The position numbers and the translations under genes were made by a program. A DNA stretch of 22,786 bases from a virus, in the IMG/VR virus record IMGVR_UViG_3300028558_000102, positions 1-22,786 of that record, one strand, 5' to 3'. The notes below the pieces were generated by a model. That model did not search any database. It saw only the letters and a program-made list of their open reading frames with translations, and had not been told where the DNA came from. Each line of letters opens with the position of its first letter. Within the stretch, counting starts at the first letter, position 1. Below are positions 794-9,458 of the stretch, one piece after another.

Positions 794-1258
794 TTGAAGC
801 ACTGCGGTCACTGCCACGAAGATAAGCCGCTGACGGAGTTCCACCGGAATGCCGCGACCAACGACGGTCTGCAGGCATGGTGCAGGAACTGCATGGGAGA
901 GTTCGTCAGGAGCGGCAGCGCGCGGCATGGTATCGACGAGCTTCTCTGGTCTGCCTACTTCACTGGTCGCTGTGATCTCTGCGGAGCGTACGCATCTGGC
1001 ACCAAGCACGGGTGGTCTATCGACCATGACCACGACCACTGCGCCGGGCCAACAGGCTGCATTGAATGCGTGCGGGGCGTGCTCTGTCAGCAGTGCAACA
1101 TCATGGAGGGCCACGTCGCCTCCGCGCAGGAGCGTGGCCTGATTACGGAAGTTCTAGGCCCGTTGAGGGACTACCTGCGAAACGGTGGCCCGTTCCAGCG
1201 ATTTCGCGGCATCAGTAGTGTTTCGTTCGAGTCACTGAGGGAAATAGACCTCACTTAG
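794..1258 (+). CDS. HNH endonuclease of the recombination endonuclease VII family
   Basis: This is a 154-residue nuclease. C4xxC7 and C30xxC33 form an N-terminal zinc ribbon of the kind often fused to phage HNH nucleases. The endonuclease VII core follows: C60xxC63, the D77-H78-D79-H80 cluster, the segment RGVLC, C98xxC101 and N102, i.e. a structural zinc with a beta-beta-alpha metal site. Family members resolve branched or mismatched DNA, and phage HNH proteins next to terminase genes often assist packaging. The start is TTG at 794, with AGGGAGG at 783-789. The first internal ATG would remove the zinc ribbon, so TTG is strongly preferred. The stop codon overlaps the 5' end of the tRNA gene at 1257. 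Its exact role (packaging, recombination or homing) is not shown. Confidence 0.88.
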   Translation: MKHCGHCHEDKPLTEFHRNAATNDGLQAWCRNCMGEFVRSGSARHGIDELLWSAYFTGRCDLCGAYASGTKHGWSIDHDHDHCAGPTGCIECVRGVLCQQCNIMEGHVASAQERGLITEVLGPLRDYLRNGGPFQRFRGISSVSFESLREIDLT

Positions 1259-1334
1259 CGGGATGGAGCAGTTGGTTAGCTCGTCGGGTCCATACCCCGA
1301 AGGTCGTCGATCCGAGTCTAAGCTCCCGCCACCA
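1257..1334 (+). tRNA. Initiator-like tRNA-Met (anticodon CAT), atypical T arm
   Basis: The anticodon CAT is at 1291-1293. Initiator hallmarks are present: an unpaired 1-72 position (A1257/C1330), three consecutive G:C pairs at the base of the anticodon stem (GGG 1286-1288 with CCC 1296-1298), and an A11:U24 pair in the D stem (GAGC/GCTC). The acceptor pairs 1258-1263 with 1324-1329. A73 and an encoded CCA (1332-1334) close the gene. Oddities: position 33 is C1290 instead of U and position 38 is C1295. The T arm has one extra base and pairs poorly, with about three of five pairs if the loop is eight bases. It may be functional and unusual, or a decaying copy. The 5' end falls inside the TAG stop of the nuclease gene. 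Confidence 0.75.
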
Positions 1335-1431
1335 AATACAACCCCTGCGGTTCCGCCCGTAGGGTGGACACCCGCGCCAGGGATACGGCGCTACGGTCAG
1401 GCCCCACCCGGATCACCAAAGGGCCGTCTAC
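1335..1431 (+). other. Structured spacer between the two tRNA genes
   Basis: There is no gene here. Several inverted repeats are visible: GCGG-TT-CCGC (1347-1356) nested in CCCT/AGGG (1343-1346 with 1361-1364), and GCGCC/GGCGC (1374-1378 with 1387-1391) inside GGGTGG/CCACCC (1362-1367 with 1404-1409). An ACCA at 1415-1418 resembles a tRNA end, but no matching acceptor or T-loop consensus is present, so I do not call a third tRNA. It may be a decayed tRNA or a processing structure. Confidence 0.3.
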
Positions 1432-1518
1432 GGAAGGTTGGCCGAGCGGTAAGGCTCCGGTCCCGAACACCGGTGACGGGCACGGCCCGCGAGAGTTCGA
1501 TCCTTTCACCTTCCGCCA
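1432..1518 (+). tRNA. tRNA-Ser (anticodon CGA)
   Basis: This is a complete class II tRNA. The acceptor GGAAGGT pairs perfectly with ACCTTCC. The D stem is GCC/GGC and the anticodon stem CCGGT/ACCGG. The long variable arm CGGGC-ACG-GCCCG is at 1477-1489, the T stem GAGAG/CTTTC carries loop TTCGATC, the discriminator is G1515, and CCA is encoded at 1516-1518. G73 with a long variable arm indicates serine. The anticodon at 1464-1466 reads UCG codons. Position 33 is C1463 instead of U and position 38 is C1468, the same two substitutions as in the neighbouring tRNA-Met. The rest of the molecule is canonical. Confidence 0.92.
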
Positions 1519-1539: not shown

Positions 1540-1758
1540 ATGCCGCTATACGAATACATCTGTGCCAACTGTGGGCGCCGCTTCGACTTGCTGGCGTCCA
1601 TCGAAAACCGCGACAGCGTCGAGCGCAAGTGCCCCGAATGCACTTGCCCTGTTTCCAGCCGAGTCACCGTCCCCAGCAAGCTGACCGTGTACTTCCATGG
1701 GCGCGGCTGGTCGTGCGTTGACAAGAACTACGGGAGCAACGATGCCCCAAGCGACTAG
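1540..1758 (+). CDS. Small zinc-ribbon protein, FmdB-like
   Basis: The 72-residue protein begins MPLYEYICANCGRRF and has C8xxC11 and C31xxC34 pairs that would bind one zinc. This opening and spacing are typical of the FmdB / CxxC_CxxC_SSSS regulatory zinc-ribbon family. The C-terminal half (from about residue 40) has no recognisable domain and ends in a polar tail. The start ATG has GAAGGA at 1528-1533 with ideal spacing, just after the tRNA-Ser CCA. Its last 17 bases overlap the next gene. Family members are small and mostly of unknown function, so a DNA- or protein-binding role is inference. Confidence 0.8.
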   Translation: MPLYEYICANCGRRFDLLASIENRDSVERKCPECTCPVSSRVTVPSKLTVYFHGRGWSCVDKNYGSNDAPSD

Positions 1759-2338
1759 CGGCAGCGCGGCTCCCCGCGCAACCGAGGGAACACGCATACC
1801 TGTTGAGTCGATGAAGCGGCGATCACGTGGTCGTCCGCCTGGCTCTGCAAACAAGCCGAAGAGCATGGTGCCCGCCGAGTTCGCCAAGGAAATCCTGACG
1901 ACCCTGCAAGACATCATCCCCGCAGAGAGTTTCGCGTACCTCAAGGGCGTGGTCATGGACGGCAAGGCCGTCTCGACCAAGGCCGAGCTGGACACCCTGA
2001 TCGTGCTGCTCAACCGCAGCCTATGGGGTGCGCTCGTCGAGGAAATGCGACCGCCCACGCCTCCTGACAACATCGAGGACGCTCTCGAAATGGTCAAGGA
2101 GACTGGCACGTCTGAGCCGAAGCAGCAATTCCGGCGTGACGTGACCGAGCGCCTCAAGGTGCTCAACAGCCTTCTCACACTGCGCTCTCAGATCGAGAAG
2201 CGCGAGGAGGACAAGGGTGACGACGGCGAGTCGGCCCTGGTGAAGATTTGGGCTGCTCGTGGCATGGCTGGTCGCGTGACCATCAATGTCGAGCGCCATG
2301 AGCCGACCGTCATCGAGGGTCGCGCGGTTCCGGTCTAG
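1742..2338 (+). CDS. Probable small terminase subunit (AT-hook protein)
   Basis: This 198-residue protein lies directly before the large terminase, the usual place of the small subunit that recognises the packaging site. Residues 25-40 (KRRSRGRPPGSANKPK) contain an AT-hook core RGRP followed by a basic patch that could contact the DNA minor groove. A mostly helical, charged middle (about 45-160) would suit oligomerisation. I chose ATG 1742 because GGGAG lies five bases upstream at 1732-1736. An upstream in-frame start at 1697 would add 15 residues inside the zinc-ribbon gene. The stop TAG shares its G with the GTG start of the large terminase. The role rests on position and the DNA-binding motif; I do not see a clear small-terminase helix-turn-helix. 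Confidence 0.68.
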   Translation: MPQATSGSAAPRATEGTRIPVESMKRRSRGRPPGSANKPKSMVPAEFAKEILTTLQDIIPAESFAYLKGVVMDGKAVSTKAELDTLIVLLNRSLWGALVEEMRPPTPPDNIEDALEMVKETGTSEPKQQFRRDVTERLKVLNSLLTLRSQIEKREEDKGDDGESALVKIWAARGMAGRVTINVERHEPTVIEGRAVPV

Positions 2339-3792
2339 TGGCTGCCACGCCGGAGCAGGAGATCATCGAGCTTCTGAGCAACCCGGGCGTCCTGCTCGAA
2401 ACGCTCACCGAACTGGACGGTGGACCGACAAGGCTAGAGCCGTACCAGTGGCGCTACCTGAATGACATGGCGGACTTCCGCATTGTCAACAAGAGCCGCC
2501 AGATCGGATTTTCGACCATCATCGCGGCTGAGGGTTTCGCTCGCGCGCTGACGTCCACGAAGCCGTATAAATGCAACTACGTCTCGATCAACCAGACGGA
2601 AGCCGCCGACAAGATCGAGATTGCCCGCAACTTCTACCACAGCATCCCCGATGTGTTCGGTGAGGGTGCTGACCCGATCAAGCGGGTCCTCTGGAAGGAC
2701 AGCGAGCACGAGATCGCGTTCGGTCGTCCGCCGCGTGTTGCGAGTCTGATCTCGCAGCCAGCGTCGTCCGGTATCCGAGGCGGTCGCAAGGACATCTACT
2801 TCGATGAGTTCGCGCACATCCGCGACGCGAAGAAGCTGTTCACCGCCGCAATGCCAGCCATCATCCGTGGTGGCGGTCGCTTCACGATCATCTCGACACC
2901 GCTCGGACAGAGCGGCCTGTTCTACGACGTCTGCACCGACATCGCGAGCTACCCGCAGTACAGCCGCCACTCCGTTCCGTGGTGGGAGTGCTCGGAAATG
3001 GTCAAGCCGGAGTTCTTCGACGAGGCCATCGCAATGGCTCCCGACATGGACACCGTCGCTCGTGTCGCCAAGTACGGCACGCTGAAACTGCAATCCCTGC
3101 TCGATGGACTGGGCGGCGACATTCAGTCGTTCCAGACCGAGTTCGAGGCGACGTTCGTTGACGAGACCGAGGCGTACTACCCGTGGGAACTCGTCATCAA
3201 GGGCGTGAACGACGATCTGCCGATCTGGCGCCACATTCCGAATGGGTGGCAGCCGGAGGGCGACGTCTCCATCGGTGTTGACCTTGCCAAGATGCGAGAC
3301 GAGTCGGTGTTCACCGTCGTCGAGCACATCAAGGACGACGCACACCCGAAGGGCATGCGGCAAGTGGTTCGCCTCATCACCACGAGCCAGGCGGACTACG
3401 ACAAGCAGGCCGACTACCTGATCGAACTGGCCATCGCGTCGCACGCACGCCGGATCACGATTGACGAGACCGGTCCTGGCGCGATGTTCGTTGAACGGCT
3501 CAAGAAGTCGTCCGTGGGAACGATGGTCGAAGGCGTGACCTTCACCAACGCCTACAAAGAGAACTGGGCCACGCGGTTCAAGGGCGCGCTGCAGGGAGAC
3601 GTTCCCTCGGTCAGCTACCCGCGCATCGCACAGCTCCTGCGCCAGATACACAACATTCGCCGGACCAAGTCTGAGGCGGGGTTCTACAAGTTCTCCGGTG
3701 GAAGTGCAGCGAAGGCGGACGACTACTTCTGGTCGTTGTGCCTCGCGCTCTTTGGTAAGGGCCGCGTCGCGGCAAGGATTTCGTCGCTATGA
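2338..3792 (+). CDS. terL: Large terminase subunit (packaging ATPase and nuclease)
   Basis: This is the motor that pumps DNA into the prohead and cuts the concatemer. Of its 484 residues, the N-terminal ATPase has a variant Walker A KSRQIGFST (52-60), a Walker B IYFDE (153-157, with D156 and catalytic E157) and the coupling motif STPLG (186-190). The C-terminal RNase H-like nuclease shows acidic residues in SIGVDLAK (D315), ITIDETGPG (D376) and AKADDYFW (D461/D462). Length and motif order fit a full-length terminase. The GTG start overlaps the previous stop by one base, and no closely spaced ribosome-binding site precedes it, so translation is probably coupled to the small subunit. Confidence 0.96.
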   Translation: MAATPEQEIIELLSNPGVLLETLTELDGGPTRLEPYQWRYLNDMADFRIVNKSRQIGFSTIIAAEGFARALTSTKPYKCNYVSINQTEAADKIEIARNFYHSIPDVFGEGADPIKRVLWKDSEHEIAFGRPPRVASLISQPASSGIRGGRKDIYFDEFAHIRDAKKLFTAAMPAIIRGGGRFTIISTPLGQSGLFYDVCTDIASYPQYSRHSVPWWECSEMVKPEFFDEAIAMAPDMDTVARVAKYGTLKLQSLLDGLGGDIQSFQTEFEATFVDETEAYYPWELVIKGVNDDLPIWRHIPNGWQPEGDVSIGVDLAKMRDESVFTVVEHIKDDAHPKGMRQVVRLITTSQADYDKQADYLIELAIASHARRITIDETGPGAMFVERLKKSSVGTMVEGVTFTNAYKENWATRFKGALQGDVPSVSYPRIAQLLRQIHNIRRTKSEAGFYKFSGGSAAKADDYFWSLCLALFGKGRVAARISSL

Positions 3793-7848: not shown

Positions 7849-8142
7849 ATGGCAGAGATGCGAACCATCGGCCTCAAGCATCGCTACTTCGATGCAGAGC
7901 GGATGTTCTTCTTCTACGACGGAGAGGTTCACGTCGAAGACGGCGTGGCGACAGTCCCGGTGGACCGACCTGAGTGGATCACTCAGTTGTTCATTCGCGG
8001 ATACAAGTACGACCCCAAGGGCTTCAACCAGGAAACGGCTGAGCCTCTTGATCTGGATGAAGTTCTGACCAAGTGCGCGGCCTACGTCGCGAAGGTCGAG
8101 AACCTCGCCAAGGCGCGAGCCAAGAAGGCCAGCGCCAGTTAG
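7849..8142 (+). CDS. Small head-region protein of unknown function
   Basis: This 97-residue protein lies between the capsid and glycosyltransferase genes, with GGGAG five bases before the ATG. The first 50 residues look beta-rich (ERMFFFYDGEVHVEDGVATVP). The segment RPEWITQLFIRGYKYDP comes next, then an acidic stretch (LDLDEVLTKC), and finally a Lys/Ala-rich helix (VENLAKARAKKAS). No enzymatic motif, signal or membrane segment is present. Its place after the capsid gene is compatible with a decoration, stopper or assembly protein, but nothing in the sequence decides between them. Confidence 0.8.
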   Translation: MAEMRTIGLKHRYFDAERMFFFYDGEVHVEDGVATVPVDRPEWITQLFIRGYKYDPKGFNQETAEPLDLDEVLTKCAAYVAKVENLAKARAKKASAS

Positions 8143-8162
8143 TCACGGATGCGGAGGATGCG

Positions 8163-9458
8163 TTGAAGGTACTCTTGCTGGGCGACAGCCCGCTCATGAC
8201 CACTGGTTTCGGACGCGTGCAGCGCGAGGCGGTAGCCGCCTTTCTTTCCCGGGGATGGGAAGTGGCTTCGGTCACTGCGCTGCAGACTGAGGAAAAGCCG
8301 TGCGATCTGCCGCTCAAGCAGTATGTACCGCAGCCGGGCGACAACATGGGCCTTCTCACCATCGAGAAGGCTGTGCTCGACTTCGAGCCTGACGTCATCT
8401 TCTGCACAAGCGAACCGGGTGGCATCGAGGCATTCACGCAGTTCACCCCGAACACGATCCCGTTTGTCGGATATGTCGTGATCGAAGGTGAGCCGATCTC
8501 ACTACGGTCCTGGCACGAGGCCCTGGCCACCATCGACTTCTTCACATGTTCGGAGTACGGCACGAAGATCGCCAAGCGTGATCTCGGTCGCGACGTCGGC
8601 TACGTTTACCACGGTGTCGATCACGCCGCCTTCTACCCCGACATCAAGAAGCGCGAACAGACTCGACGCATGCTCGGTTGGGCCAACAAGTTTGTGGTCA
8701 TGACCGTTGCACAGAATGTCCGCCGCAAGCAGCATCCACGCCTGTTCGAGGCGATCAAGCTGCTGCGCGAGCAGTACAAACAGGACGACGTCGTCCTCTA
8801 CGACCACACGGTCCCGTTCATGCGCCACTGGCTCGAAGGCTGGCATCTGCCGAACCTCTCGGACGCCATGGGCCTGCACGACGCGATCATGTTCAACCCG
8901 AACCTCACCGGCTTCGGCTCCGCGATCCCAGTTGGTCGGGTAGACGGGATGCCTGGCCTGGCGGACCTTTACCGCGCTGCGGACCTGTTCGTTCTGCCGT
9001 CGCAGGTCGAGGGCTTCTGCCTTCCGGCTGCCGAGGCGATGGCTTCTGGCCTGCCGGTCGCAGTCACGAAGTACGCCGCTGGCTGGGAGGTCGTCTCACC
9101 GGCTGGTGCGGGTATCCCGGTCGCTGACTGGGAACTGGCCAAGAACAACACGAAGCTGGCGAACGTGAACCCGGCAGCCCTCGCGAAGCTGATCCTCGAC
9201 CTCAAGCGTGATCCGAAGCGTCTCGCCCGGATGAGTGTCGCAGGTGTCGAGCGCGCGAACGACTTCCAGTGGTCCGCGTTTGGAGACTACGCCGTTGACG
9301 CTATTGAGAATGCAGCCAGGAAAGGCCCACGAAACGAAGGGTCGTCCGCTTCGCATGACGGTGTCGAAGTTCAAGAAGACACCCATGAAGGCGAAGTTCT
9401 CCGTGGGACGCGGCACAGTGCGAAAGCACAGGCCGCTGATCCCGTTCCGCAAGCATAA
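8163..9458 (+). CDS. GT4-family glycosyltransferase
   Basis: This is a retaining GT-B glycosyltransferase that would move a sugar from a nucleotide donor to an unknown acceptor. Of 431 residues, the N-terminal Rossmann half opens with KVLLLGDSPLMTTGFGRVQ (a glycine-rich acceptor-side loop). The linker has YVYHGVDHAAFYP. The donor-binding half has VAQNVRRKQHPRLFEAI (about 182-198) and the family E-x7-E motif, EGFCLPAAE (E283 to E291), with MASGLPV after it. I start it at TTG 8163, with GGAGG at 8153-8157; upstream in-frame codons lie inside the previous gene. The last ~34 residues have no GT character and overlap the next reading frame. Its place among structural genes suggests modification of a virion protein, but DNA or host-surface targets are possible. 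Confidence 0.92.
   Translation: MKVLLLGDSPLMTTGFGRVQREAVAAFLSRGWEVASVTALQTEEKPCDLPLKQYVPQPGDNMGLLTIEKAVLDFEPDVIFCTSEPGGIEAFTQFTPNTIPFVGYVVIEGEPISLRSWHEALATIDFFTCSEYGTKIAKRDLGRDVGYVYHGVDHAAFYPDIKKREQTRRMLGWANKFVVMTVAQNVRRKQHPRLFEAIKLLREQYKQDDVVLYDHTVPFMRHWLEGWHLPNLSDAMGLHDAIMFNPNLTGFGSAIPVGRVDGMPGLADLYRAADLFVLPSQVEGFCLPAAEAMASGLPVAVTKYAAGWEVVSPAGAGIPVADWELAKNNTKLANVNPAALAKLILDLKRDPKRLARMSVAGVERANDFQWSAFGDYAVDAIENAARKGPRNEGSSASHDGVEVQEDTHEGEVLRGTRHSAKAQAADPVPQA

Follow-up and report, generated by a model that had tools for sequence, protein, structure and literature searches.

Why should two neighbouring tRNA genes of one phage both carry C, and not U, at position 33 of the anticodon loop? U33 is regarded as an almost invariant base, and a tRNA gene that lacks it is usually taken for a pseudogene. 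The two genes lie in a 22.8 kb virus record (IMG/VR IMGVR_UViG_3300028558_000102, positions 1 to 22,786), here called the window, which also encodes endonuclease VII, a zinc-ribbon protein and a terminase-to-tail module. An earlier note had read the loops as TCCATAC in tRNA-Met and CCCGAAC in tRNA-Ser, each with C33. These loops and their coordinates are confirmed by the sequence and, for tRNA-Ser, also by ARAGORN and Rfam RF00005 (Table 1).

Table 1. Features at the tRNA locus of the window
Feature	Coordinates	Strand	Basis
Endonuclease VII/HNH gene	794..1258	+	Pfam PF02945, E 8e-11; PHROG 2633
Initiator-type tRNA-Met-like gene (anticodon CAT), encoded CCA	1257..1334	+	BLASTN matches to tRNA-Met genes; aligns with viral initiator-type tRNAs
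Met-gene anticodon loop TCCATAC (C33 = 1290, anticodon CAT 1291-1293, C38 = 1295)	1289..1295	+	Sequence
tRNA-Ser(CGA), intact, long variable arm, discriminator G73, encoded CCA	1432..1518	+	ARAGORN; Rfam RF00005, 46.1 bits, E 4e-7
tRNA-Ser anticodon loop CCCGAAC (C33 = 1463, anticodon CGA 1464-1466, C38 = 1468)	1462..1468	+	Sequence, ARAGORN, Rfam
Small FmdB-like zinc-ribbon protein, tRNAs on one side and terminase on the other	1540..1758	+	Pfam PF09723, E 9e-12
Terminase large subunit	2338..3792	+	PHROG 2; Pfam Terminase_6N

The stop codon of the endonuclease gene (1256-1258) shares two bases with the 5' end of the Met gene. Inside the structural module, a glycosyltransferase gene (8073-9458; Pfam Glycos_transf_1, with a GT4-conflict match too) is flanked by the major capsid gene and a head-tail adaptor gene. 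Searches of GenBank phages for near matches of the window, and of viral contigs for near copies of both anticodon loops, returned none; the top-listed BLASTN match for the stretch is Pseudomonas phage PfAn1.

The tRNA-Ser(CGA) is the sole window tRNA called by ARAGORN and Rfam. It has the cloverleaf, long variable arm, G73 and CGA anticodon of a bacterial-type tRNA-Ser(CGA), and the Rfam covariance model confirms where the anticodon is placed. It departs from this type at U33, a near-universal though not strictly defining feature. All stems are complete, and the gene is otherwise canonical, as had been proposed. Because the anticodon stem is paired throughout (CCGGT/ACCGG), no alternative register gives U33. 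UCG is the top serine codon in 14 window ORFs (127/460; main and structural genes).

The description of two tRNA genes holds for this intact gene and less well for its neighbour, which ARAGORN does not call and Rfam does not recover with the cutoff relaxed to E<=10. The Met gene has the three G-C pairs of bacterial initiators at 29-31:39-41 (GGG/CCC), an unpaired 1:72 (an A1xC72 mismatch in the alignment) and an A11:U24 that is also initiator-like. Its 5' half is nearly the same as in viral initiators and in E. coli tRNA-fMet. Among viral initiator-type tRNAs it aligns best with L517 and L427. What it lacks is the intact T arm of an initiator (T54 T55 C56, G53:C61); its own is degenerate, with A53, C55, one extra base and two A.C mismatches. 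It is probably a degenerate gene or pseudogene in decay. The earlier argument that random decay is a poor explanation for tRNA-Ser is sound; the Met gene is decayed elsewhere, in its T arm.

Position 33 was compared between viral and bacterial tRNAs called by ARAGORN, a detector that may miss degenerate or unusual genes such as the window Met gene. Viral contigs picked by a T-arm/CCA pattern blind to the anticodon gave 643 distinct tRNAs with 619 U, 23 C, 1 A and no G at position 33, counted without phylogenetic correction. The tRNA regions of 16 bacterial genomes gave 169 calls, 168 of them real tRNAs and all of these U33, the extra G33 call being a false gene. C33 is therefore recurrent in phage tRNAs and rare or absent in the sampled bacterial ones (23/643 vs 0/168, Fisher P = 0.007), and the viral rate would be depressed by any host tRNAs that IMG/VR contigs hold beside proviruses. 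The trait recurs across phage tRNAs, beyond what the window alone could show. It is uneven across isoacceptors in the unselected viral sample (P about 0.0003), and the C33 tRNAs occupy 14 contigs where 18.6 would be expected (P = 0.01), a clustering which means that the counts are not fully independent. With all viral loci pooled, 76 of 1266 tRNAs have C33 and two have A33, although some of the scans behind this set were directed at Ser(CGA) or at initiator-type genes, so that its 6% is no base rate. A candidate suppressor tRNA with anticodon TTA (L296:4630-4713) has C33. C38, which had also been singled out, was dropped as a special feature, since it is common in phage tRNAs (94/643 in the unselected sample).

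Departures from U33 are, moreover, almost all of one kind. Non-U bases at this position are 23 C to 1 purine in the unselected viral tRNAs, whereas those at U8, U54 and U55 combined are 18 C to 73 purines (P = 4e-12 for the comparison). Purines predominate at the other near-invariant U positions and are almost absent here, which argues against random decay. Position 33 of phage tRNAs behaves as pyrimidine-constrained, being C or U and hardly ever a purine. G33 was seen in the tRNA-Gln(TTG) of Aeromonas phages avDM9-HANS (L550:1045-1121) and B614 (L551:1045-1121), with loop CGTTGTA.

A pattern scan of viral contigs, with every match listed, found C33 in 11 of 36 genuine Ser(CGA) genes, the other two dozen or so having U33. 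In a tree built after masking position 33, the window gene is nearest to the C33 genes L032, L031, L030 and L025, and the state at 33 needs 8-10 changes, which are clustered; branch support is low, as expected with 89 columns. Within the phage Ser(CGA) group that includes the window gene, C33 is common and partly inherited. A tRNA-Ser(CGA) with C33 was also found in four uncultured bacterial bins (L111, L131, L133, L196), two of them named for the candidate phyla Roizmanbacteria and Parcubacteria, and both C33 and U33 forms are present in a small Roizmanbacteria sample. These four were the only C33 tRNA-Ser(CGA) genes among 119 loci from a C33 scan of genome contigs, most of which were chance matches in coding DNA. 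Pattern counts for Pseudomonadota were set aside as uninformative, because the pattern matches neither form of the Ser(CGA) gene in these genomes. Four further loci (L042, L045, L048, L069) have near-identical tRNA-Ser(CGA) 5' halves, AT-rich sequence beyond the anticodon stem and no tRNA call; the AT-rich continuation is possibly an intron or insertion.

Viral tRNAs with anticodon CAT and a GGG/CCC stem have C33 in 8 of 86 cases, and several viral genes (L435, L472, L545) share the loop CCCATAA. From these rates (Ser(CGA) 11/36, initiator-type 8/86), a pair like that of the window is expected at about 3% if the two are independent. That both window tRNAs have C33 is unusual yet not extreme in a phage.

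The loops were also compared with those of related phages, as had been proposed. L004, the closest relative with tRNAs, has U33 only, in other isoacceptors than those of the window. Several terminase relatives (L002-L022) carry large tRNA arrays, of up to 28 tRNAs, directly upstream of the terminase, and 8 of their 144 array tRNAs have C33, including all four Leu(GAG) genes; no orthologues of the two window tRNA genes were found in these relatives. Three of the tRNA-Leu(GAG) genes called by ARAGORN (L009:418-493, L011:1951-2027, L018:1812-1889) are 76-78 bases long, without the long variable arm usual for tRNA-Leu, and have the loop TCGAGAG or TCGAGAA; the fourth (L016:2292-2376) has the long arm and a loop as in the short versions. 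Two arrays also contain an RNase P RNA of bacterial class A (L011:1397-1710 and L018:1211-1547; Rfam RF00010, 137 and 140 bits).

Cultured phages give a case of conservation. A tRNA-Ile(GAU) whose loop is CCGATAA, and which is otherwise free of defects, occurs in 16 of the 17 cultured-phage records examined that have this gene, although the search was seeded with the gene of Aeromonas phage 25, itself C33, and so was slightly biased toward C33 matches. The phages belong to several groups, and their hosts are Aeromonas (6), Klebsiella (4), Enterobacter, Cronobacter, Erwinia, Ochrobactrum, Acinetobacter and Vibrio; the exception, Proteus phage Stubb, has U33. The trait can thus be kept over long divergence.

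The reading preferred here, with a probability of about 0.55, is that C33 is a tolerated, recurrent and sometimes conserved variant of phage tRNAs. The sequences, the viral and bacterial contrast, the pyrimidine bias and the conservation in cultured phages are direct observations, and position 33 of phage tRNAs admits either C or U but hardly ever a purine. Beyond these, C33 tRNAs would be expressed and would decode without editing. C33 would be tolerated or mildly favoured because phage tRNAs are presumably under selection unlike that on host tRNAs. The window tRNA-Ser(CGA) probably functions, reading UCG despite some weakening of its U-turn, while the neighbouring initiator-type tRNA-Met, C33 too, has lost its normal T arm and is probably decaying. 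Metazoan initiator tRNA naturally has C33 (PMC9023262), which shows that C33 is compatible with function. In yeast tRNA-Gln, U33C and U33A alleles gave a phenotype and impaired function (PMC3664417), and tolerance of C33 may thus carry a cost.

Nuclease escape and relaxed selection are the main rivals to a tolerated pyrimidine variant. Under the first, C33 would be selected because it makes a poor substrate for host nucleases that attack the anticodon loop and depend on U33 or on an undistorted U-turn (VapC, enzymes of the PrrC/RloC type and other toxins), and the phage pair would replace host tRNAs cut in infection. Anticodon-loop changes have been proposed to free phage tRNAs from nucleases (PMC10264068), and the conservation of C33 in tRNA-Ile(GAU) over phage groups suggests selection. 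Mycobacterium abscessus VapC5 cleaves just tRNA-Ser(CGA) and tRNA-fMet (PMC10287673), the same two types as in the window, where each is altered at 33 and 38. The site of Sinorhizobium meliloti VapC10, CU(U/G)G^AA, takes in U33 (PMC10945364). However, VapC11 requires an intact stem-loop with GG preceding the cleavage site (PMC6459853), none of these cited sources shows that cleavage needs U33, and the window Met gene is broken. The one statistical test possible asked whether C33 is enriched in tRNAs that VapC toxins are published to cut, and it gave a negative result (unselected sample, 3/84 vs 20/559, P = 1.0; pooled sample, 12/156 vs 44/988, P = 0.11). Escape, which the earlier note had raised, is retained as a possible but doubtful explanation. 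Its broader form, in which C33 is an adaptive and widespread loop modification, fixed in certain isoacceptors such as the tRNA-Ile(GAU) of several phage groups, that keeps decoding and hides the tRNA from U33-dependent host nucleases, is equally tentative.

Under relaxed selection, phage tRNAs would be dispensable, with invariant positions drifting and U-to-C merely the commonest change to survive at 33. The looser viral positions 8, 54, 55 and 58, which depart from consensus more in viral than in bacterial tRNAs, leave plain relaxation some room, and the degenerate T arm of the Met gene is in keeping with it. It is nevertheless unlikely, given the near absence of purines at 33, unlike at U8, U54 and U55, the many C33 tRNAs that are otherwise canonical at every checked feature (28/76, all viral loci), and the conservation in tRNA-Ile(GAU) over divergent phages.

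C-to-U editing that returns U33 in the mature tRNAs, another suggestion of the earlier note, gained no positive support and is very improbable. It would agree with a pyrimidine-only position 33 and would also mend the A.C mismatches and C55 of the Met gene. Such mismatches, however, arise anyway from single transitions in paired bases, the extra T-arm base would persist, and tRNA-Ser has nothing else to repair. The window proteins examined include no identified editing enzyme, and editing has no known phage precedent. Sequencing or assembly error at both sites (1290, 1463) is the least credible reading, for although the viral contigs yielded no further copy of the two genes for checking, C33 is shared by the Ser(CGA) genes nearest to that of the window and by cultured phages that were sequenced independently, which refutes error as a general explanation and indicates that the window bases are real.

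No description of C33 in phage tRNAs, and no published remark on C33 in tRNA-Ile(GAU), was found in open-access full texts, and a study of anticodon loops in Shigella phage Sf14 lists no change at 33. If phages do share a class of otherwise canonical C33 tRNAs that is conserved in cultured phages, both the decoding efficiency of C33 in bacteria, in laboratory strains, and the role of position 33 in anticodon-nuclease attack become testable. Phage tRNA annotation might likewise have to be adjusted.

The window genes resemble several known systems in part. The phage tRNAs of van den Berg et al. 2023 (PMC10264068) differ from host tRNAs in the anticodon loop, but the main text makes no mention of position 33 or U33, and the window change is at U33 itself. 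Eukaryotic initiator tRNA (tRNAi-Met) has C33 in an initiator-type loop, as the phage genes do (PMC9023262); in contrast, the phage genes have a bacterial initiator body and phage C33 extends to elongators, and the likeness need not reflect descent. The initiator-type tRNA-Met of the cultured phage PfAn1, with loop CCCATAC, shares C33, C38 and a nearby HNH gene with the window Met gene, but its T arm is normal and the match is 77% identical over 86 bases. The tRNA-Ile(GAU) of T4-like and T5-like phages (Aeromonas phage 25, Klebsiella KPV15, GZ8 and others) is another isoacceptor in other phages, yet it likewise carries C33, is otherwise canonical and is conserved.
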